This document shows, piece by piece, positions 4,367 to 25,800 of a DNA stretch of 44,837 nt; the stretch's first letter is position 1; every line of letters begins with the position of its first letter. Both the position numbers and the translations under genes were made by a program. The stretch spans positions 1 to 44,837 of the IMG/VR virus record IMGVR_UViG_3300045952_000180. One strand, given 5' to 3'. Origin of the DNA: a virus. The notes under the pieces were generated by a model. It saw only the letters and a list, made by a program, of their open reading frames with translations. It searched no databases and was not told the origin of the DNA.

Positions 4367-4980
4367 TTTACCTGACGGGCGCGTTTCGACGGTCGCAGGC
4401 ACCGGCGCTCCGAGAATTAGGCGTGGGCGTCATGGTGCAGCCGGGCACGCTCGCGTATCTGCAACGGCTCAGTGATCTGCCGTGGGCGGCCGACAACGGG
4501 TGCTTTGCCCAAGGTCAGGCATTCGACCTCGCAGGCTTCTATGCGTGGCTGGATCGCGCCCCCCGAGAGCGCTGCCTTTTCGCCACGGCCCCGGATGTCT
4601 ACCCAGACTCAGTCGCGACCCTCGAGCGCTCGCGCCCGGTGCTGCCCAGACTCCGGGCCCTCGGCTATCGCGCCGCCTATGTGCTGCAGGATGGTGCCGA
4701 GCCCGACGCCATCCCGTGGGACGAGCTCGACGCGGTCTTCGTCGGCGGGACGACACACTGGAAGCTCGGTCCCGCTGCGCGCCGTCTCGTCATGGAGGCG
4801 CGCCGCCGTGGGGTCTGGACCCACATGGGGCGCGTGAACAGCGAGCGTCGATTGCGGTACGCCGCACTCATCGGGTGCCAGTCCGCCGATGGAACCTATC
4901 TCGCGTTCCGCAACCGGCATGGCGGCGATGGTGTCTCGGATCTGCGGCGATGGTTTCAGCAGCGGCTGCTCCAACTATGA
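4363..4980 (+). CDS. dpdA: DpdA-like 7-deazaguanine DNA transglycosylase
   Basis: 205 aa. Belongs, from its motifs, to the short phage branch of the tRNA-guanine-transglycosylase superfamily that inserts 7-deazaguanine bases into DNA: ADNGCF (43-48), ATAPDV (74-79) with its Asp, QDG (109-111), FVGGTTHWKLG (126-136), HMGRVNS (154-160) and DGTYLAF near the end. No zinc site of bacterial TGT is visible. Start chosen at the ATG overlapping the queE stop. With QueE it would swap guanines in phage DNA for CDG, preQ0 or a derivative, protecting against restriction enzymes. The family match is from memory of the motifs; substrate is inferred. Confidence 0.8.
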   Translation: MIYLTGAFRRSQAPALRELGVGVMVQPGTLAYLQRLSDLPWAADNGCFAQGQAFDLAGFYAWLDRAPRERCLFATAPDVYPDSVATLERSRPVLPRLRALGYRAAYVLQDGAEPDAIPWDELDAVFVGGTTHWKLGPAARRLVMEARRRGVWTHMGRVNSERRLRYAALIGCQSADGTYLAFRNRHGGDGVSDLRRWFQQRLLQL

Positions 4981-5282
4981 CCAAGCCCAAGCAGTCGCGC
5001 GGCCGCTCGGCCTGGGCGCAGCACGTCATCAACCAGCGCCGCCTCGATCGGTGGCGCGGCATCTACGGAGGACGCTATGAGCGAAGGCTACTACCAGCGC
5101 CCGCTGATCCCGCTGTCGGACGAGGAACTGCAGGACAAAAGCCGCCTGCTCGGCCGGCGCATCTGCGAGCTCGAGGAGATGAAAGAGCACCACAACGAAC
5201 TGCGAAAAGACATGGCCGACGCCGAGCGCCAACTCACCAACCACATTCGCGCGCTCGCACGAGTCGTGCGCGACGGCGCTGA
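4977..5282 (+). CDS. Doubtful small basic protein
   Basis: An ATG overlaps the dpdA stop (ATGA) and opens a 101-aa frame. Its first 33 residues (MTKPKQSRGRSAWAQHV...) look like a real basic peptide. From 5077 on it overlaps the better-supported gene in another frame, and its residues become Arg/Pro/Ala-rich as in non-coding frames. Either a real gene with a long overlapping tail or a fortuitous frame in a 90-nt gap. Confidence 0.3.
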   Translation: MTKPKQSRGRSAWAQHVINQRRLDRWRGIYGGRYERRLLPAPADPAVGRGTAGQKPPARPAHLRARGDERAPQRTAKRHGRRRAPTHQPHSRARTSRARRR

Positions 5283-5295
5283 AGAAAGGGACTAG
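5077..5295 (+). CDS. Small coiled-coil hypothetical protein
   Basis: 72 aa with ATG behind a strong GGAGGA site. Residues 15-65 form a heptad-like charged helix (ELEEMKEHHNELRKDMADAERQL in part). It overlaps the next gene by one base (TAGTG). Early-region cytoplasmic protein without a recognised family; a dimeric accessory factor is plausible from the coiled coil. Confidence 0.75.
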   Translation: MSEGYYQRPLIPLSDEELQDKSRLLGRRICELEEMKEHHNELRKDMADAERQLTNHIRALARVVRDGAEERD

Positions 5296-5471
5296 TGCTC
5301 CACTGCGGCGACTGCCGATTCTTCGATAGTGGCGACGAGGATAAGTTGGGTTGGTGTCGTCGCAATCCGCCAGTGATACCAGCCCAACAAGACCACACCA
5401 CGGGTACGTGGCCGATGGTTGATCCTGACATTGATTGGTGCGGCGAATTCAAAGGGGGGGCGAATGACTGA
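5295..5471 (+). CDS. Small Cys-rich zinc-binding protein
   Basis: 58 aa starting with GTG at 5295, which shares a base with the upstream stop. CGDCRFF at 4-10, a Cys in GWCRRNPP, then WP...DIDWCGEF near the C-terminus: two CxxC-like pairs that should bind one zinc. Small proteins with this CxxCRF / CRRxPP / WCGEF pattern are common in phages and prophages beside recombination genes; their job is unknown. It overlaps the start of the erf gene by 8 nt. Confidence 0.75.
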   Translation: MLHCGDCRFFDSGDEDKLGWCRRNPPVIPAQQDHTTGTWPMVDPDIDWCGEFKGGAND

Positions 5472-6330
5472 CGAGAAAGAACCGCGCCGCTCGCGCGCCC
5501 AGGTGGTCATCGAGAAACCGGAGACGCAGGCCCTCGCGCGTCTCGATCCGCAGGCGCTCATGGCCAAGGCGGTCGAGAGCAACGCCAACATCGAGGTGCT
5601 CGAGCGCGTGATGGCGCTGGCCGAGCGCGCGCAGGCATGGAGCGCGCGCCAAGCCTACAACCGCGCGATCGTCGAGTTTCAGCGTCGCTGCCCGCCGATC
5701 AAAAAGACCGCGACGGCGGCGATCGGGGACCGCTTCTCGTTTACCTACGCGCCGCTCAACGACGTCATGGCGGTCATCCGGCCGATCCTCAATGACCTCG
5801 GGCTCTCGCCGTCCTGGCGACAGGCGAAGCCGTCGGGCCCGGCCAGCGTCGCCGTTCACTGCCGTATCACGCATGACGGCGGGCATTGGGAAGAAGCGCC
5901 CGAGCCGACGACGATCCCCTACCGCACCGAGGGCCGCCTGAGCCCCGGTCAGGTGGTCTCCGCGGCGACGAGCTTCGCCCAGCGGCTCTCCCTGATGGGC
6001 ATGCTCGGCATCGTGCCCGAAGGCGAGGACGTCGATCCCGAGGAGAGCGAGGCGCGTGTAAACGAGGTGGCTCGAGAGCGGCGCGGCGCCGTCGAGCGCG
6101 GCGAGCCTGAGCCGCAGGCCGACGTCGATCTCGCCACCATCGCGCGCATGGCTGACCGGCTGAAGCTGACGACCGAGGAACGGCTGGTATTGACCAAGGA
6201 CTATCTGCATGGCCAGCCGATGAACAAGGCCAGCGTCGAGGATCTGCGCCGGCTCGCCCTCTTCCTCGGTGATGCCGCCGGCGTCGCGCAGTGGCGCGCC
6301 GAGCGCGAGCGCGAGCTGGAGAAGCATTGA
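5464..6330 (+). CDS. erf: Erf-type single-strand DNA annealing protein
   Basis: 288 aa. The core (about residues 45-180) shows the Erf pattern: KTATAAIGDRFSFTYAPLNDVM, VIRPILNDLGL, then a beta-rich stretch ending in QVVSAATSFAQRLSLMGMLG. Erf proteins form rings that anneal complementary single strands and drive phage recombination and genome circularisation. The C-terminal third is charged and helical. ATG at 5464 follows a G-rich site and overlaps the upstream zinc-protein stop. No exonuclease partner is recognised next to it. Confidence 0.85.
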   Translation: MTDEKEPRRSRAQVVIEKPETQALARLDPQALMAKAVESNANIEVLERVMALAERAQAWSARQAYNRAIVEFQRRCPPIKKTATAAIGDRFSFTYAPLNDVMAVIRPILNDLGLSPSWRQAKPSGPASVAVHCRITHDGGHWEEAPEPTTIPYRTEGRLSPGQVVSAATSFAQRLSLMGMLGIVPEGEDVDPEESEARVNEVARERRGAVERGEPEPQADVDLATIARMADRLKLTTEERLVLTKDYLHGQPMNKASVEDLRRLALFLGDAAGVAQWRAERERELEKH

Positions 6331-6563
6331 AGAGAGCGCGGACGAAGACTCGCGGCCCCGAGTCGGTCTCGTCCCGGATTCTGCGGGCGAAGATCCGCAT
6401 GCTCCAACAGCTGAACGTTCAACTGAGACGTGAGGGCCGGGCGATGTACGCGCTGGTCGTCGCCGTGCGGATTCTTGAGCAGCATCGGGGCGAGGGGTAT
6501 GAGGCCGCCGACCTGCAACGGATGTTCGACACCCTGAAGGACATCAAGGCGGCGCTGGTATGA
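6327..6563 (+). CDS. Small hypothetical helical protein
   Basis: About 78 aa from TTG at 6327 (TTGA overlap with the erf stop, with GGAGAAG upstream); an ATG at 6291 is an alternative. Basic N-terminus, then a long helix (ILRAKIRMLQQLNVQLRREG). Early operon gene without a recognised family. Confidence 0.6.
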   Translation: MKRARTKTRGPESVSSRILRAKIRMLQQLNVQLRREGRAMYALVVAVRILEQHRGEGYEAADLQRMFDTLKDIKAALV

Positions 6564-6766
6564 CGTGGCCCCCCGCGACCGAGGCCGAGCAGCGCGCCGT
6601 CCATCGGCGCCAGCTCGCCGGCGCGGCCGCGCTCACCCACATCGAGAGCTTCGCGCCCCCGCCGCCCCCCGCCCCGCCCCTGGACCCCGAGGCGTGGGCG
6701 CGTTTACTCGAGCTCAAGGCCGAGGCGCTCGCGTACATCGAAACCTTCAAGCCGTGGTGGTTGTGA
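6560..6766 (+). CDS. Small hypothetical protein with proline stretch
   Basis: 68 aa, starting in an ATGA overlap with the preceding gene. Has a central Pro run (APPPPPAPPLD) between two helical parts; LTHIESFAP and LAYIETFKPWW look like a duplicated short motif (I-E-[ST]-F). Cytoplasmic; unknown role in the early operon. Confidence 0.6.
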   Translation: MTWPPATEAEQRAVHRRQLAGAAALTHIESFAPPPPPAPPLDPEAWARLLELKAEALAYIETFKPWWL

Positions 6767-18853: not shown

Positions 18854-20995
18854 ATGCCGCTGCCGATTCTGCCCGGGCCCCCGATCGATGACGCCGCCGC
18901 CGCGGCGATCATCACGACGCCCCCGCCCGATCAGGGGCAAGGCGGGTCGGGCCCGCCGATCGTCTATCGGCCGGGACAGGGACAGCCGGGCGCCGGCGCG
19001 GCCGCCGCCGCGGGCGCACCGATTCAGGATCTCTTGCGCTACGGCTCGCCCCTGCACCAGCAGATCCTCGGCCGGCTGAATTCGCGGCGCGAGCTCTCGT
19101 CGCGGCACATCGGCAAGCGCTACGACAGCTGGGACGAAGTCGATGAGCATTGCCGGATGTTCATCGATCTCTCGCGGCGCGCCAAGCGCGGCGACGGCTC
19201 CACCGATCCCACCAAAGCCGAGATGCCCTTCGACCGCGCGATCGTGATGCCGATGTCGCTGGCGATTCTGACGGTGCGGTTAACCCAACTGCTCGGCATC
19301 TTCGGCTCGCGTGAGCCAATGATCCAGCTCGAGGGCCGCGGCCCAGAAGACGTCCGGCCGGCGAAAATCATGGAAGCGCTGCTCGGCTACGACCTCCAGC
19401 AAATGTCCGCGTACACGACGTGGTACGCGTTCTGCCAGGATTCTGAAAAGTACGGCATGGGCGTGATTCACGACTGCTGGGAAGTCGAGCAAGGCTGGTC
19501 GATGAAGTCGCCGCAGGTGCCCGACCAGATGAAAATGATGCTCGACTACATGGGCCTGGGCGGGCTCCTGCGCCCGCAGCCGCAGTGGGGCATCACCCGC
19601 GAATACAACCGCTGGGAAGCCGTCGATCCGTTCCACTACTGGCCCGATCCGCGCGCGCCCGTGTCGCAGGTGCAGCAGGGCGAATTCGTCGGTCACCGCA
19701 TCTATCGCGGCATGATGCACTTCAAAGAGCGCGCGATCGACAATGGCGGCGACTACTTCAACCTGGAATTTCTGCCGAAAGCGGGCGGCCGCGGCGCCAC
19801 GCGCACGGGCCGCAATCGGTTCGACATCGGCGACTTTCAGCTGCGCGAAGCGCCCGAGGGCGATGACCGCGGCTTTTACGGTCTGGATACGATGCAGGTG
19901 AAGCTGATCCCGGCCGACTGGAAACTCGGCACCGGGACGCGCCCCGAGATCTGGCGCTTCGCCTGGGCGGATGAGGGCGTGATCGTGCGCGCGAGCCCGA
20001 CCGGATACGCGCACGGCCAATTCAGTTATGCGGTCGGCGAGAGCGTGCCCGACGAGCACGCCTCGTTTAACCCCGGCAACATCGAGAATCTCGAGGGCAT
20101 CCAGCGCACGATTAACTGGCTGGTCAACTCGCACGTCGACAACGTCCGCAAGCACCTGAACGACGCGATCATCTTCTCGCCGTCGCTGGTCGAAGAGGCG
20201 GATCTTCTCAATCCTGGCCCGTCCCGTCACGTCCGCCTCACCGCGCTCGGCGAGAAGATGTTGCAACAGGGCCAGCTGGCGATTACGCAGATGCTGATGC
20301 AGCTGCCGTGGGTCGATGTCACCAAGGGGCATCTGCAGACCACCAATGCGCTCTTCGACATGGCGCAGCGCTTGGCCGCGACGTCCGACCCGCAGATGAG
20401 TCAGACCACCGACGACGAGCGCACACTCGGCGAGGTGCAACAGGTGATTGCCGGCTCTTCGGCGCGGCTGGCCATGACGGCGCGGATGCTCGACGCGCAG
20501 GCGCTGCAGCCCCTGGCCAATCGCGCGATCTCCAATCGCCAGCAATTCACCGAGCTCAGCCAATACGTGCGGATCGCCGGCGACATGGCGGCCGAGTTTG
20601 GCGGCGCGGATCGACTGCTGATCCGCCCGGCGGATCTGGGCGGGAGTTTCGACTACATCCCGCACTCGGGGACCCAGCCGGCCGATCCGGCCCGGCTGGC
20701 CGGCGTGTGGGCCAAGATGCTCGAGGCGGGCGCGAAGATCCCGCAGCTGTACCAGCCGGGGCCCGACGGCAAGGTGCTCGATCTGCGCGAGATTTTCAAC
20801 GAAGCCGCGAAGGCGATGGGCGTGAAGAACGTGAACCAGTTTTACATCTCGGTCATGCCGGACCCTCAGCTCGCGGCCATGGTGCAGGCCGGCAATGCGG
20901 TACCGATGGGCGCGGCGCAAGGCGGTCGCGTGCCCGGCGCGGGCATACAAACCCCAATGATTCAGGGCGCCGATCTGGAGCAGGCCCCGGCATGA
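18854..20995 (+). CDS. Portal protein
   Basis: 713 aa, the size and position of a podovirus portal. Forms the dodecameric ring through which DNA is packaged and ejected. Seen in the sequence: a disordered Pro/Gly/Ala start (1-60), an alpha/beta wing (about 80-400), a long helical stem/crown part with LEGIQRTINWLVNSHVDNVR and QTTDDERTLGEVQQVIAGSS, and a C-terminus rich in Gly/Gln. Starts 1 nt after the preceding stop and ends by ATGA overlap. It fits the SU10/P22-like portal lineage, in line with the SU10-type capsid gene downstream; lineage is inferred. Confidence 0.85.
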   Translation: MPLPILPGPPIDDAAAAAIITTPPPDQGQGGSGPPIVYRPGQGQPGAGAAAAAGAPIQDLLRYGSPLHQQILGRLNSRRELSSRHIGKRYDSWDEVDEHCRMFIDLSRRAKRGDGSTDPTKAEMPFDRAIVMPMSLAILTVRLTQLLGIFGSREPMIQLEGRGPEDVRPAKIMEALLGYDLQQMSAYTTWYAFCQDSEKYGMGVIHDCWEVEQGWSMKSPQVPDQMKMMLDYMGLGGLLRPQPQWGITREYNRWEAVDPFHYWPDPRAPVSQVQQGEFVGHRIYRGMMHFKERAIDNGGDYFNLEFLPKAGGRGATRTGRNRFDIGDFQLREAPEGDDRGFYGLDTMQVKLIPADWKLGTGTRPEIWRFAWADEGVIVRASPTGYAHGQFSYAVGESVPDEHASFNPGNIENLEGIQRTINWLVNSHVDNVRKHLNDAIIFSPSLVEEADLLNPGPSRHVRLTALGEKMLQQGQLAITQMLMQLPWVDVTKGHLQTTNALFDMAQRLAATSDPQMSQTTDDERTLGEVQQVIAGSSARLAMTARMLDAQALQPLANRAISNRQQFTELSQYVRIAGDMAAEFGGADRLLIRPADLGGSFDYIPHSGTQPADPARLAGVWAKMLEAGAKIPQLYQPGPDGKVLDLREIFNEAAKAMGVKNVNQFYISVMPDPQLAAMVQAGNAVPMGAAQGGRVPGAGIQTPMIQGADLEQAPA

Positions 20996-21730: not shown

Positions 21731-22714
21731 ATGGCGGACGAACAACCAGCAGCAGCGCCCAGCAGCGCACCATCACCGGCCCCGGCACCGGCCGCGGCTC
21801 CGAGTGCGCCCGCCGCCGCCCCCGCGGCGCCGGCACCATCGTCCTCGCGTTTAAGCGAGCTCACGAGCGACTTTCTCCCGGCTGAAAAGCCGGCGCCCAG
21901 TCCAGAACCCCAGCCGACGCCCGAACCGGCGCCGGTGCCCGAGCCGGCCCCGGCGAGCCCACGGCCCGAGCAGCGCATCAAGATCCGCGGCAAGGAATAC
22001 ACGTTCGCGGAAGTGCTCGAGAACGAGGTGCTGCAGCAAGCGCTGCTGCAGACCTACGAGCAATTCCCGACGCTGCAAAAGAAGTACATCGAGATGCTGG
22101 AGCAGCAGCGCCAGCAGCCGTCGCAGCAGCCGATGCCGCAGATCGACCCGCGCGTCGAGCAGGCCCAGCTCGTCGCCCACTACGCCCCCCAGATCGCGCA
22201 AGTCGTGCGCGAGGGTCGCATCGAAGAGGACTTCGCCCAGCTGTATCCCAACGCGGTCGCGCAGATGCTCTGGCACCGCGATCAGCTCTATCAGCTCGGC
22301 ACCGCCTTCAACGAGTTTCGGACGGCGAACGCCGGCCAGACCCGTAAGGCGGAGGCGACCGGGCATCAGACGCAGCTGACGGCGACCCTCGATGCGCTGG
22401 CGGGCCAGGGCGCGATTTTCGCGCCGCTCAAAGACGCCAAAGAGCGGCAGGGGTTTCTGGATTTCGTGATCGAGATGGGCGATCCCCCGGTCAGCAAGCT
22501 GACCGCGGAGTACCTCGGTCGCATGTGGGTCGCGTTTAAGCACGAGACGATTGTGACGGCGGCGCAGGCGACGGCGGAGCGTGACCGGATCGAGCGTGAG
22601 AACAACCGGCGACGCGCCGCCGGCGACGGCAAGGGCTCCCGCCCGACGCCGGCGCCTGCAGCCGAGCCGAGCTTGCTCGACTCGCTCACCGCGGACTTTC
22701 TGCCGAGGCGATAG
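21731..22714 (+). CDS. Putative capsid scaffolding protein
   Basis: 327 aa from ATG 21731. Position just before the major capsid gene, Pro/Ala-rich flexible N-terminus (1-85), then charged helices with Gln-rich coiled parts (YIEMLEQQRQQPSQQPMPQ), and a basic C-terminus all suit a scaffold that templates procapsid assembly and leaves. A short motif is repeated at both ends: RLSELTSDFLP near residue 40 and LLDSLTADFLPRR at the very end, perhaps two capsid-binding helices. Function inferred from context. Confidence 0.75.
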   Translation: MADEQPAAAPSSAPSPAPAPAAAPSAPAAAPAAPAPSSSRLSELTSDFLPAEKPAPSPEPQPTPEPAPVPEPAPASPRPEQRIKIRGKEYTFAEVLENEVLQQALLQTYEQFPTLQKKYIEMLEQQRQQPSQQPMPQIDPRVEQAQLVAHYAPQIAQVVREGRIEEDFAQLYPNAVAQMLWHRDQLYQLGTAFNEFRTANAGQTRKAEATGHQTQLTATLDALAGQGAIFAPLKDAKERQGFLDFVIEMGDPPVSKLTAEYLGRMWVAFKHETIVTAAQATAERDRIERENNRRRAAGDGKGSRPTPAPAAEPSLLDSLTADFLPRR

Positions 22715-22723
22715 AGGACAACC

Positions 22724-22777
22724 ATGGCCGTACTCGGCATGCGTGGCACCGGCAACTTCTCGACAGACGATCGGCCT
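22724..22777 (+). CDS. Major capsid protein, exon 1 (codons 1-18)
   Basis: ATG at 22724 with GAGGA upstream. Eighteen codons give MAVLGMRGTGNFSTDDRP, the typical N-terminus of SU10-type (DUF5309) major capsid proteins. The unspliced frame then meets GAA TAG. The exon ends in GGCCT, which pairs with GGGCC at 22787-22791 with the U.G pair that marks a group I 5' splice site. Joined to exon 2 it restores an unbroken 389-aa protein. Confidence 0.88.
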
Positions 22778-23460
22778 GAATAGCTTGGGCCTGACATCAG
22801 GTAACTGATGACTATGCAGGGGCTATATGCGGGCAATATCCTAAAGCTCCCTGTCCTTACTAGGGAACAACCAGGGAGATGTACCAATGGACAAGACGCA
22901 GAGAAGCCTGACGGAACGCTTGGCGTGGCTCGGAGGGATCATCGACGGTGAAGGGTGTTTTGACACCGGCCGAGCGACCACGCCCCACTATAAGCAACGC
23001 TTGCGCAAAGATGGCAAGCCGTGGTGGGGCGAGTATCGCTTTGCTCGATGTGGATTGGACATCACCAACACCGACGGCGAGATCATCGATGAGTGCGCCG
23101 CCATTTTCACGGAGCTCGGACTACCGTTCTATCTCTCGCGCAAGCACCATCCGCGAGCGACACGGCCATGTTTCAAGCTCACGGTTTATGGATACAAGCG
23201 ACTGGTGCGCGTGCTTCCGCACATCCTCCCCTATCTCGTTGGCGCCAAGGCTCGTCAAGGCGCGCTCATGCTGCAGTTGTGTGAGATGCGCGTGGCGAAA
23301 GGGCGGAACGAGATCTGGACGGAGGATGAGCATCGCCTGGTTGAGGCGATTCGCATGGCGCGCAACCGTCTGGAACTCCCACAGACTGCCATGCCCCAAC
23401 CCCTCTCAACGCAGGGTTAAGGTACAGTCGGCCCTCGTCGGAAACGGCGAGGATTCAGCG
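22778..23460 (+). ncRNA. Group I self-splicing intron in the major capsid gene
   Basis: 683 nt. P1: exon GGCCT (22773-22777) with guide GGGCC (22787-22791), U.G at the splice site. P2: CATCAG-GTAA-CTGATG (22795-22810), a GNRA hairpin. Possible P4/P6 pairing: CAGGGGCT (22817-22824) with AGCTCCCTG (22845-22853), and hairpin 22854-22866. P7 candidate: GTACC (22881-22885) with GGTAC (23421-23425), inside an AAGGTACAGTC element like the conserved S sequence. P9: CCTCGTCG-GAAA-CGGCGAGG (23433-23452), 8 bp with a GAAA loop. P10: CTT (22784-22786) with exon-2 AAG. The last base is G (23460). P3 and P8 were not resolved. The endonuclease gene lies between the P7 strands. Confidence 0.85.
22887..23420 (+). 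CDS. LAGLIDADG homing endonuclease encoded in the intron
   Basis: 177 aa with AGGGAG 8 nt before the ATG. A single LAGLIDADG motif is seen at residues 12-22 (LAWLGGIIDGEGCF, acidic Asp/Glu in place), so it should act as a homodimer. The rest fits the alpha-beta-beta fold (FKLTVYGYKRLVRVLPHI). It would cut intron-less capsid genes at the insertion site and so spread the intron. The start codon lies just after one P7 strand and the stop codon touches the other, so coding and ribozyme core are packed together. Confidence 0.9.
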   Translation: MDKTQRSLTERLAWLGGIIDGEGCFDTGRATTPHYKQRLRKDGKPWWGEYRFARCGLDITNTDGEIIDECAAIFTELGLPFYLSRKHHPRATRPCFKLTVYGYKRLVRVLPHILPYLVGAKARQGALMLQLCEMRVAKGRNEIWTEDEHRLVEAIRMARNRLELPQTAMPQPLSTQG

Positions 23461-24576
23461 AAGAACTATCGACAGGCGATCATTCTTCTCGAGCCGAACA
23501 CGAAAGCTCCTCTCACCGCGCTCATGTCGCGGCTGAAAGAGGAGCAAACTGATGATCCTGAGTTTAAAGTTTTTCTCAAGGGCCTGCCCTCGCAGCGCGT
23601 CCTCGTGTCCGGCTCGCAGACCTCGACCGACACCACGATCGAGACGCAGGGCTCGGGCGCGTCCAACGTGCTCCGCAAGGGGCATGCGCTCATCAATGAG
23701 CGCACGCTCGAGGTGATCTGGGTCTCGGCCGATCCGAGCTCGCCCTACAACCAATTCGCCGCGCTCCGCGGCAAGGGTTCCACGGCCGCCGCGATGAACG
23801 ACGGCGACGGCCTCTTGATCGTCGGCACCTCGCATCTAGAAGGTGCGTCGCTCCCGACGGCGATCACCTACGACCCGACCGTCGTCAACAACTACACTCA
23901 AATTTTCCGCAACGTGCTGGATCTGACCGGCACCGCACAGCAGACCCGCATGCGCTGGGACGACGCGGGCCCAATGAAGGAATACCAGCGCGAGACGCTC
24001 GAGCTGCACGCGATGGAGATGGAAAAGGCGTTTATCTTCGGCACCGGCGTCGAGGACACGACCGGCGTCCAGCCCCAGCGCACCACCAAGGGGCACATCT
24101 CGTTCGTCACCACCAACATCACCGACTTCGCGGGCTCGGTGTCCATCGATACGTGGGAGACGTTCCTCGAGAACGTGTTTAAGCGCGGCTCGAGCGAGAA
24201 AGCGTTTCTCTGCGGCTCGCGGGCGCTCAACGTGCTCAACAAGATCGCGCGGGCGCACTACACCATCACCGCGACGCCGACCAGCACCAGCTACGGCCAG
24301 AAGATGTCGGAGTGGATCACGCCCTACGGGACGCTGCAGGTGATCCAGCATCCGCTGTTCTCCGAGAACGCCACGTTCCACACGTGGGGCATCGTGATCG
24401 ATCCGAAGTTTGTCGTGTACCGCTACCTGCGCGGCCGCGACACCGACTACAAGGAAAACCGCCAGAACCCCGGCGACGACGCGCGCAAGGACGAGTGGCT
24501 CACCGAAGCGGGCTACGAATTGCAGCATGAGAACGCGCACGGCGTCGCGAAGAGCATGACGGCGTTCGTCCCGTAA
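23461..24576 (+). CDS. Major capsid protein, exon 2 (codons 19-389)
   Basis: Begins AAG AAC TAT CGA (KNYRQAIILLEPNTKAPLTAL), which continues RP from exon 1 exactly as in SU10/DUF5309-type capsid proteins. Gives 371 aa to the stop at 24574-24576. HK97-fold capsid subunit of the head. The same frame is open upstream into the intron (to 22948), so automatic callers will fuse intron sequence onto the capsid and report a false 542-aa protein. Ends AHGVAKSMTAFVP. Confidence 0.9.
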   Translation, partial: KNYRQAIILLEPNTKAPLTALMSRLKEEQTDDPEFKVFLKGLPSQRVLVSGSQTSTDTTIETQGSGASNVLRKGHALINERTLEVIWVSADPSSPYNQFAALRGKGSTAAAMNDGDGLLIVGTSHLEGASLPTAITYDPTVVNNYTQIFRNVLDLTGTAQQTRMRWDDAGPMKEYQRETLELHAMEMEKAFIFGTGVEDTTGVQPQRTTKGHISFVTTNITDFAGSVSIDTWETFLENVFKRGSSEKAFLCGSRALNVLNKIARAHYTITATPTSTSYGQKMSEWITPYGTLQVIQHPLFSENATFHTWGIVIDPKFVVYRYLRGRDTDYKENRQNPGDDARKDEWLTEAGYELQHENAHGVAKSMTAFVP

Positions 24577-24961: not shown

Positions 24962-25225
24962 ATGGCGAAATATGCGGCGGTCTGCAATCGCTTCCCCGAG
25001 CTCCAGGTCGGGGCCGACATCAAATTCGCGAGCGGCACCTTTGAGACGGACGACCCCGAGCTCTGGCGCCAGCTCCAGGCGAATGAATGGTTTGGCGTCC
25101 ATATACACCCGCGCGACCTCGCCCCACCCGAGCCGGAAACGCCCGCCGAACCCCCGACCGTCGAAGAGGCGCAGGCCGACGAGAGCGAGCCGCGCGTGCG
25201 TCGGGGGAGCCGCGGCACCCGATGA
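24962..25225 (+). CDS. Small hypothetical structural-region protein
   Basis: 87 aa from ATG 24962 (TTG at 24953 also possible). N-terminal half has a beta pattern (YAAVCNRFPELQVGADIKFASG, FETDDPELW), the C-terminal half is Pro/Glu-rich and disordered. Sits where head-tail connection proteins are found. The HNH gene at 25222 overlaps its stop. Confidence 0.6.
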   Translation: MAKYAAVCNRFPELQVGADIKFASGTFETDDPELWRQLQANEWFGVHIHPRDLAPPEPETPAEPPTVEEAQADESEPRVRRGSRGTR

Positions 25226-25800
25226 CTCAGGATGCGTGCTACCGCGGGCATGCCTTCGACGCCGAAAATACGGCGCTTGCGCCGAATGGTGAACGGCGGT
25301 GTCGAGCCTGTGCGCGGGACCGCATGCGACTCCATCGTAGCCGTCATACGAGACCGTCGCGCGGACGGGGACTACGAGGTATGCCGCTCATTGACCGTAT
25401 CTGGAGACGCGTGGAGCCCGAACCGATGAGCGGCTGTTGGATTTGGACGGGCACAGGCACGACCCACGGCTATGGCCATCTCTCTGTAGCCAATCGCAGT
25501 CAAATGGTGCATCGAGCAATGTGGGAGGCGACGCGGGGACCGATTGCACCTGGCCGCGTCCTAGACCATCGGTGCCGAGTCAGGCGCTGCTGTAATCCCG
25601 ACCATCTGGAAAGCGTCACGACGCTTGAGAATGTGCGTCGGCAACCGCAAAGCCAGCAGACGAAATGTCGGCGGGGACATTCTCTAGAAGACGCCTATCT
25701 CTGGGTTGACCGTCGGTCGATTCATCGCCAATGCCGTCGCTGTCATGCGGATCGTCAAGCGGCGCGAAAGAACCGAGGTGTACTATCCCACCCCGCATAA
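25222..25800 (+). CDS. HNH_3-type endonuclease with a zinc module at each end
   Basis: 192 aa, ATGA overlap with the upstream gene. From about residue 54 (MPLIDRIWRRVEPEPMSGCWIW) it is a complete HNH protein like the other four here: LDHRCRVRRCCNPDHLESV core and C-terminal CRRGHS...CRRCHADRQAARK. Residues 5-40 carry a second copy of that end module (CYRGHAFDAENT...CRACARDR). The front part may be the remnant of the 3' end of an older HNH gene fused by a later insertion. Confidence 0.85.
   Translation: MTQDACYRGHAFDAENTALAPNGERRCRACARDRMRLHRSRHTRPSRGRGLRGMPLIDRIWRRVEPEPMSGCWIWTGTGTTHGYGHLSVANRSQMVHRAMWEATRGPIAPGRVLDHRCRVRRCCNPDHLESVTTLENVRRQPQSQQTKCRRGHSLEDAYLWVDRRSIHRQCRRCHADRQAARKNRGVLSHPA

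Follow-up and report, generated by a model that had tools for sequence, protein, structure and literature searches.

Phage group I introns include those of T4 td and phage Twort; in some of them a peripheral loop holds an ORF for an endonuclease. The T4 td intron, which encodes the GIY-YIG enzyme I-TevI and resides in a metabolic gene, is unlike the intron described here. I-CreI-type single-motif LAGLIDADG intron endonucleases are homodimers. I-CreI, I-MsoI and I-CvuI come from introns of algal organelle rRNA genes and have organelle rRNA as their target, as opposed to a phage capsid gene here; they are alike in single-motif fold to the enzyme described below, with 15–20% identity. For mycobacteriophage LittleE, splicing of an intron in the capsid gene was shown in 2013 by RT-PCR and by N-terminal sequencing of the virion protein (PMC3706429). 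The same paper also refers to an intron in a capsid gene of lactococcal phage Tuc2009 (PMC3706429). Free-standing endonucleases of other families are biased to essential genes, capsids included, and a tendency of endonuclease genes to lie close to genes for capsid, terminase and nucleotide reductase has been described (PMC10448857). An intron endonuclease has been found to act in phage competition (PMC11620839). Phage group I introns have been reviewed (PMC2988022).

The window analyzed here, a 44,837-nt stretch of viral DNA (IMG/VR record IMGVR_UViG_3300045952_000180, positions 1 to 44,837), contains an arrangement like that of LittleE (JF937101), where a group I-like intron of ~0.8 kb with a LAGLIDADG-like endonuclease inside interrupts the major capsid gene, exon 1 ends in U and the intron ends in G. 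The LittleE endonuclease is encoded on the opposite strand, whereas the gene in the window has the sense orientation and shares part of its sequence with the ribozyme. The two enzymes share only an 18-residue motif region, and both the capsid family and the host group differ. The first-pass annotation of the window had called the dependence of a capsid protein on self-splicing unusual; given LittleE (PMC3706429) and about 20 further examples in the family described below, this was too strong.

Capsid exon 1 lies just downstream of an AGAGGA ribosome-binding site (~22713–22718) and ends in CCU, directly followed by GAA TAG, the start of the insert. The capsid frame restarts at 23461 as KNYRQAIILLEPN and runs to a stop at 24576. 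Exon 2 alone matched SU10_MCP in Pfam (1.9e-40) and phrog_1328, a major head protein, in PHROGs (9.9e-39). Joining 22777 to 23461 gives a product of 18+371 = 389 amino acids, with DDRP joined to KNYRQ at the junction. The profile of SU10-type major capsid proteins, PF17236 (named DUF5309 in the first-pass annotation), matched the whole protein with 139.7 bits (cut-off 24.1). The first-pass annotation had placed a group I intron behind codon 18 of the capsid gene, with coordinates that proved exact, and the intact 389-residue product it had predicted is in the same frame as in intron-less relatives. A portal-like gene (18854–20992; SU10_portal in Pfam) is located 5′ of the capsid gene, which fits a head module. 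Two further ORFs were recorded nearby. The intron and exon 2 together hold a 542-codon merged ORF with a GTG start (22948–24576), a likely annotation trap. At 25222–25800, between two small genes, there is a free-standing gene for a homing endonuclease of the HNH type (Pfam HNH_3, phrog_826; ORF from 25087) that is absent from the same junction in related loci L001 and L002; in L001 a 583-aa ORF (4838–6586) is inserted slightly downstream of the position of this gene.

A search of IMG/VR with exon 2 returned 13 related loci. Four of them, L001–L004, contain the same capsid gene without the insert, their capsid proteins being 92–93% identical to that of the window and the DNA flanking the insert site ~76–89% identical. 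All four read without interruption across the site as MAVLGMRGTGNFS[T/S]DDRP followed by KNYRQAIILLEPN; L002, L003 and L004 are identical across it and count as one line of evidence, with L001 as the second. The more distant capsids of L005 and L006 (51–59%) are likewise uninterrupted. Deletion of positions 22778–23460, exactly 683 nt, restores the frame of L001–L004 and sets the site at U22777/A23461. Comparison with intron-less capsid genes, which had been proposed as a check, revealed an empty site in L001–L004, with the same protein across it.

Table 1. Features of the interrupted capsid gene, with positions in the window.
Feature	Position	Strand	Remarks
Capsid exon 1, codons 1–18, MAVLGMRGTGNFSTDDRP	22724..22777	+	N-terminus kept in L001–L006 and L009
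Group I intron, 683 nt, terminal G at 23460	22778..23460	+	absent from L001–L004; structure modelled
P1, GGCCU 22773–22777 / GGGCC 22787–22791, U.G at 5′ splice site	22773..22791	+	
P10, CUU / AAG	22784–22786 / 23461–23463	+	hand model
P2 hairpin, 6 bp, CAUCAG-GUAA-CUGAUG (GNRA loop)	22795..22810	+	
P3 5′ strand GGGGC, partner GCCCC 23393–23397	22819..22823	+	covariation in 11 introns
Q element UAUAUGCGGGCAA, including P4 5′ strand UGCG 22828–22831	22824..22836	+	P4 compensatory change
P5 (UCC/GGA)	22839..22891	+	hand model
LAGLIDADG homing endonuclease ORF, 177 aa	22887..23420	+	Pfam, PHROG, predicted fold
R element AAGACGCAGAGAA, P4 3′ strand CGCA 22897–22900	22893..22905	+	within first codons of the endonuclease
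P6 5′ arm, partner 23360–23378; endonuclease ORF in P6 loop	22901..22919	+	
P7 5′ strand CAGACUG, bulged A, partner CAGUCG 23425–23430	23382..23388	+	A-U/G-C/U-A exchange in relatives
P3 3′ strand GCCCC, partner GGGGC 22819–22823	23393..23397	+	model, covariation
P8, AACCC / GGGUU	23398..23418	+	hand model
J8/7 AAGGUA and P7 3′ strand (S element)	23419..23430	+	partial RF00028 match
P9, 8 bp, CCUCGUCG-GAAA-CGGCGAGG	23433..23452	+	hand model, partial Rfam match
Capsid exon 2, SU10-type major capsid protein, codons 19–389 and stop	23461..24576	+	

Hand modelling of the insert located P1, P10, P2–P9 and J8/7 in canonical order. The P3–P8 and P4–P6 core, the P7 guanosine site and the P, Q, R and S motifs were all found, P6 alone being weak: 279 of 5000 shuffles (5.6%) pair equally well. 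Both marks of a group I intron, a U.G pair at the 5′ splice site and a terminal G, are present; these, P1 itself, the GNRA hairpin of P2, the GAAA loop of P9 and the P10 pairing had been noticed before and were recovered at the same junctions. In P5, CCUAAAG resembles a tetraloop receptor and CUCCCUG/CAGGGAG form an inner hairpin. An initial hand model, with GCAGGG/CCCUGU as P4 and with P7 5′ of the ORF, was dropped in view of the R element inside the ORF and of the homologs. The ordered triple of Q, R and S motifs occurs a single time in the 44.8-kb window, both strands counted, and arose in 2 of 2000 shuffled versions of the region. With the sequence 5′ of J8/7 randomised, an equally good P7-P3-P8 arrangement was obtained in 7 of 3000 dinucleotide shuffles and 4 of 3000 codon-order shuffles. 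Single-sequence folding of the two halves of the intron gave a z of about −1.5. The DNA pattern TGCGGGCAANNNCCTAAAG was matched 17 times in viral contigs, never with an S motif downstream.

Detection with Rfam RF00028, which the first-pass annotation had proposed as a check and whose failure it had named as a refutation, did not succeed at the gathering score anywhere in the window, and nothing was returned at E≤10 when the whole intron was compared with Rfam. A partial RF00028 match of 12 bits (23340–23451) aligned J8/7, P7′ and P9 exactly. Twenty homologous introns with the same motifs, scanned whole, likewise gave no RF00028 match at gathering, while the 3′ half of the relative L062 by itself scored 28.9 bits (E 6.9e-6). 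The Rfam negative thus says little either way about the intron of the window, which is missed because an ORF sits inside the ribozyme.

A profile search with the endonuclease and its relative L014 collected 80 IMG/VR loci, which form 60 clusters at 85% identity. Many of them share the layout of the window. In 11 of the 60 clusters the R element has the same +6 offset relative to the start of the endonuclease as it has here, and in others the offset is shifted. The 5′ part of the window intron matched L046 (E 4e-5) and L073 (6e-4) in nhmmer. Eleven introns were aligned, the rows being hand-picked for a simple P3 register (those with a different P3 register or additional P7 elements were not included) and the P7 5′ strands being initially found by complementarity. 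In this alignment 98.9% of the cells of P3, P4 and P7 hold a pair, and 26 changes affect both sides of one. For the three helices together covariation scored 0.475, compared to 0.107 ± 0.027 after shuffling and 0.06–0.11 with slid partners; for P3 and P4 alone it was 0.605 compared to 0.139 ± 0.039. When anchors free of complementarity were used, P7 formed 5 of 5 pairs in 20 of 21 introns, and P3 formed at least 5 pairs in 13 of 21 matched versus 74 of 420 mismatched combinations. The core helices thus covary among homologs, strongly in P3 and P4 and with compensatory changes in P7. The ribozyme layout of the window is shared by capsid introns such as those in L062, L036, L048, L046, L078 and L100, with the R element at +6 in the first five and at +8 in L100; in all six a single-motif LAGLIDADG endonuclease starts in P5 and the host gene encodes a major capsid protein. 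The homologous introns differ from that of the window in insertion site and capsid family, and their endonucleases are 24–33% identical.

It is unlikely that the insert is a group I intron that has decayed and lost the ability to splice, leaving a broken capsid gene in a defective or minority genome. Such decay would agree with two departures in the window, a G-A mismatch as the fifth P4 pair and a J4/5 longer than usual, and with the fact that only one record, derived from a metagenome, contains this intron. However, the splice-site and core elements are all intact, no stop interrupts the 177 codons of the endonuclease, and neither exon shows a stop or a frameshift when compared with its relatives.

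In the first pass the insert had been read as an intron, which holds, and the 177-residue endonuclease ORF that fills most of it had been overlooked. This ORF scored 22.1 bits with Pfam LAGLIDADG_3, just below the cut-off of 22.5, and matched phrog_5046 (3.3e-10), a PHROG labelled HNH whose matching proteins here have the LAGLIDADG motif. The catalytic-acid motif reads LGGIIDGEG, and IDGEGC is invariant across 30 aligned sequences. An AlphaFold2 model was obtained with pLDDT 87 and pTM 0.79; the best solved structures found with it by Foldseek were I-CvuI, I-MsoI and I-CreI (E 7e-8 to ~1e-7, TM 0.5–0.65). The ORF product is a single-motif LAGLIDADG endonuclease, with an I-CreI/I-MsoI-type fold as judged from the model and with cleavage predicted. 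A search of genome contigs for the endonuclease gave 76 candidates, none of which was confirmed, and 50,697 isolate phages searched with the endonuclease, two homologs and the window DNA contained no match.

The endonuclease start codon lies within P5 (AAUGGAC), and its codons double as P4′, P6, P7, P3′ and P8. Its Shine-Dalgarno sequence, AGGGAG (22873–22878), is paired in the inner P5 hairpin. Since the ribosome-binding site is thus part of a ribozyme helix, folding of the ribozyme probably keeps translation of the endonuclease low.

We consider it very improbable that no splicing takes place, that the insert is an endonuclease gene only, and that translation of exon 2 begins at a codon within it, giving the capsid protein a new N-terminus. 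The reading frame has no stop between 22912 and 24576, GTG 22948 (the start of the merged ORF) and ATG 23326 are candidate starts, and GGAGGG is found upstream of the former; however, GGAGGGATCATCGACGGTGAAGGG corresponds to codons of the GGIIDGEG motif of the endonuclease, which explains the resemblance to a Shine-Dalgarno sequence. The exon 1 N-terminus LGMRGTG is kept down to capsids of 34% identity, and an internal start leaves the ribozyme structure unexplained. LAGLIDADG enzymes also occur in inteins and archaeal introns, but an intervening sequence of another kind (an intein, excluded by the in-frame TAG at 22781, a group II intron or an archaeal bulge-helix-bulge intron) is hardly credible, as Rfam scans found no group II or other intron family at E≤10 and P3, P4 and P7 covary with group I relatives.

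We conclude that the insert at 22778–23460 is almost certainly a mobile group I intron, its splicing and homing being deduced from group I biochemistry and from LAGLIDADG enzymes. By analogy with other group I introns, after transcription a guanosine held at P7 would attack 3′ of U22777, and exon 1 would next attack 3′ of G23460; the ligated mRNA would then yield the normal 389-residue capsid protein. As is typical of LAGLIDADG enzymes, the endonuclease homodimer would cut the intron-less capsid gene of a co-infecting phage at the junction or close to it, and repair of the cut allele would copy the intron in.

Host genes of the endonuclease family were assessed by PHROG comparison of one or two flanking or adjacent ORFs per cluster. 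A major head protein flanks or adjoins the endonuclease in at least 40 of the 60 non-redundant IMG/VR clusters, a count obtained with search seeds that are themselves capsid-resident and among relatives the closest of which may share their habitat by descent. In the remaining clusters the neighbors are portal, terminase, Sak4, Ku-like, other endonuclease or unknown genes. The capsid PHROGs concerned number at least eight, counting best or further matches (phrog_267, 283, 334, 617, 1328, 1357, 9953 and 14242), a family count limited by the fact that PHROGs which share a capsid fold may be remotely related. Entry points along the capsid profiles vary, from positions 45–69 in phrog_267 to ~100 in several phrog_1357 capsids and near the C-terminus in L048, so insertion was not at one inherited site; in L063 and L083, which belong to the same capsid PHROG family as the window, it is a few codons downstream of the site described here.

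Other arrangements of the endonuclease were also observed. It is free-standing and immediately upstream of the capsid gene in L038, L040, L044, L050 and L051, and antisense to a neighboring phrog_1357 capsid fragment in L072, L067, L069, L076, L084, L097, L108, L110 and L014, an orientation it shares with LittleE. A second phrog_5046-type ORF adjoins the first in L089, L104 and L110. In L064 (2501–3460) two S motifs (offsets 661 and 911) follow one endonuclease, which suggests twin or nested group I introns in the capsid gene.

With moderate confidence, we favor the view that LAGLIDADG group I introns of this kind form, together with their free-standing sisters, a lineage that specialises in major capsid genes and has repeatedly moved among those of unrelated tailed phages at different sites, the endonuclease frame and the ribozyme core being fused in the intron of the window and in its nearest relatives. 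In the literature searched, which was covered in part, no description of a capsid-specialised LAGLIDADG intron family was found. Reliance of a capsid protein on splicing is already known; the capsid bias of the family, seen here in a sample drawn with capsid-resident seeds, is less expected.

The annotation of the capsid gene, which automatic callers would split or fuse, is corrected by these results, and the ORF inside the ribozyme provides the reason why such introns are missed by Rfam. The data suggest that one family of mobile introns persistently targets the capsid genes of phages. If so, gene conversion during co-infection would have its hot spots in capsid genes, and the family would offer a naturally occurring set of single-motif endonucleases whose conserved targets differ.
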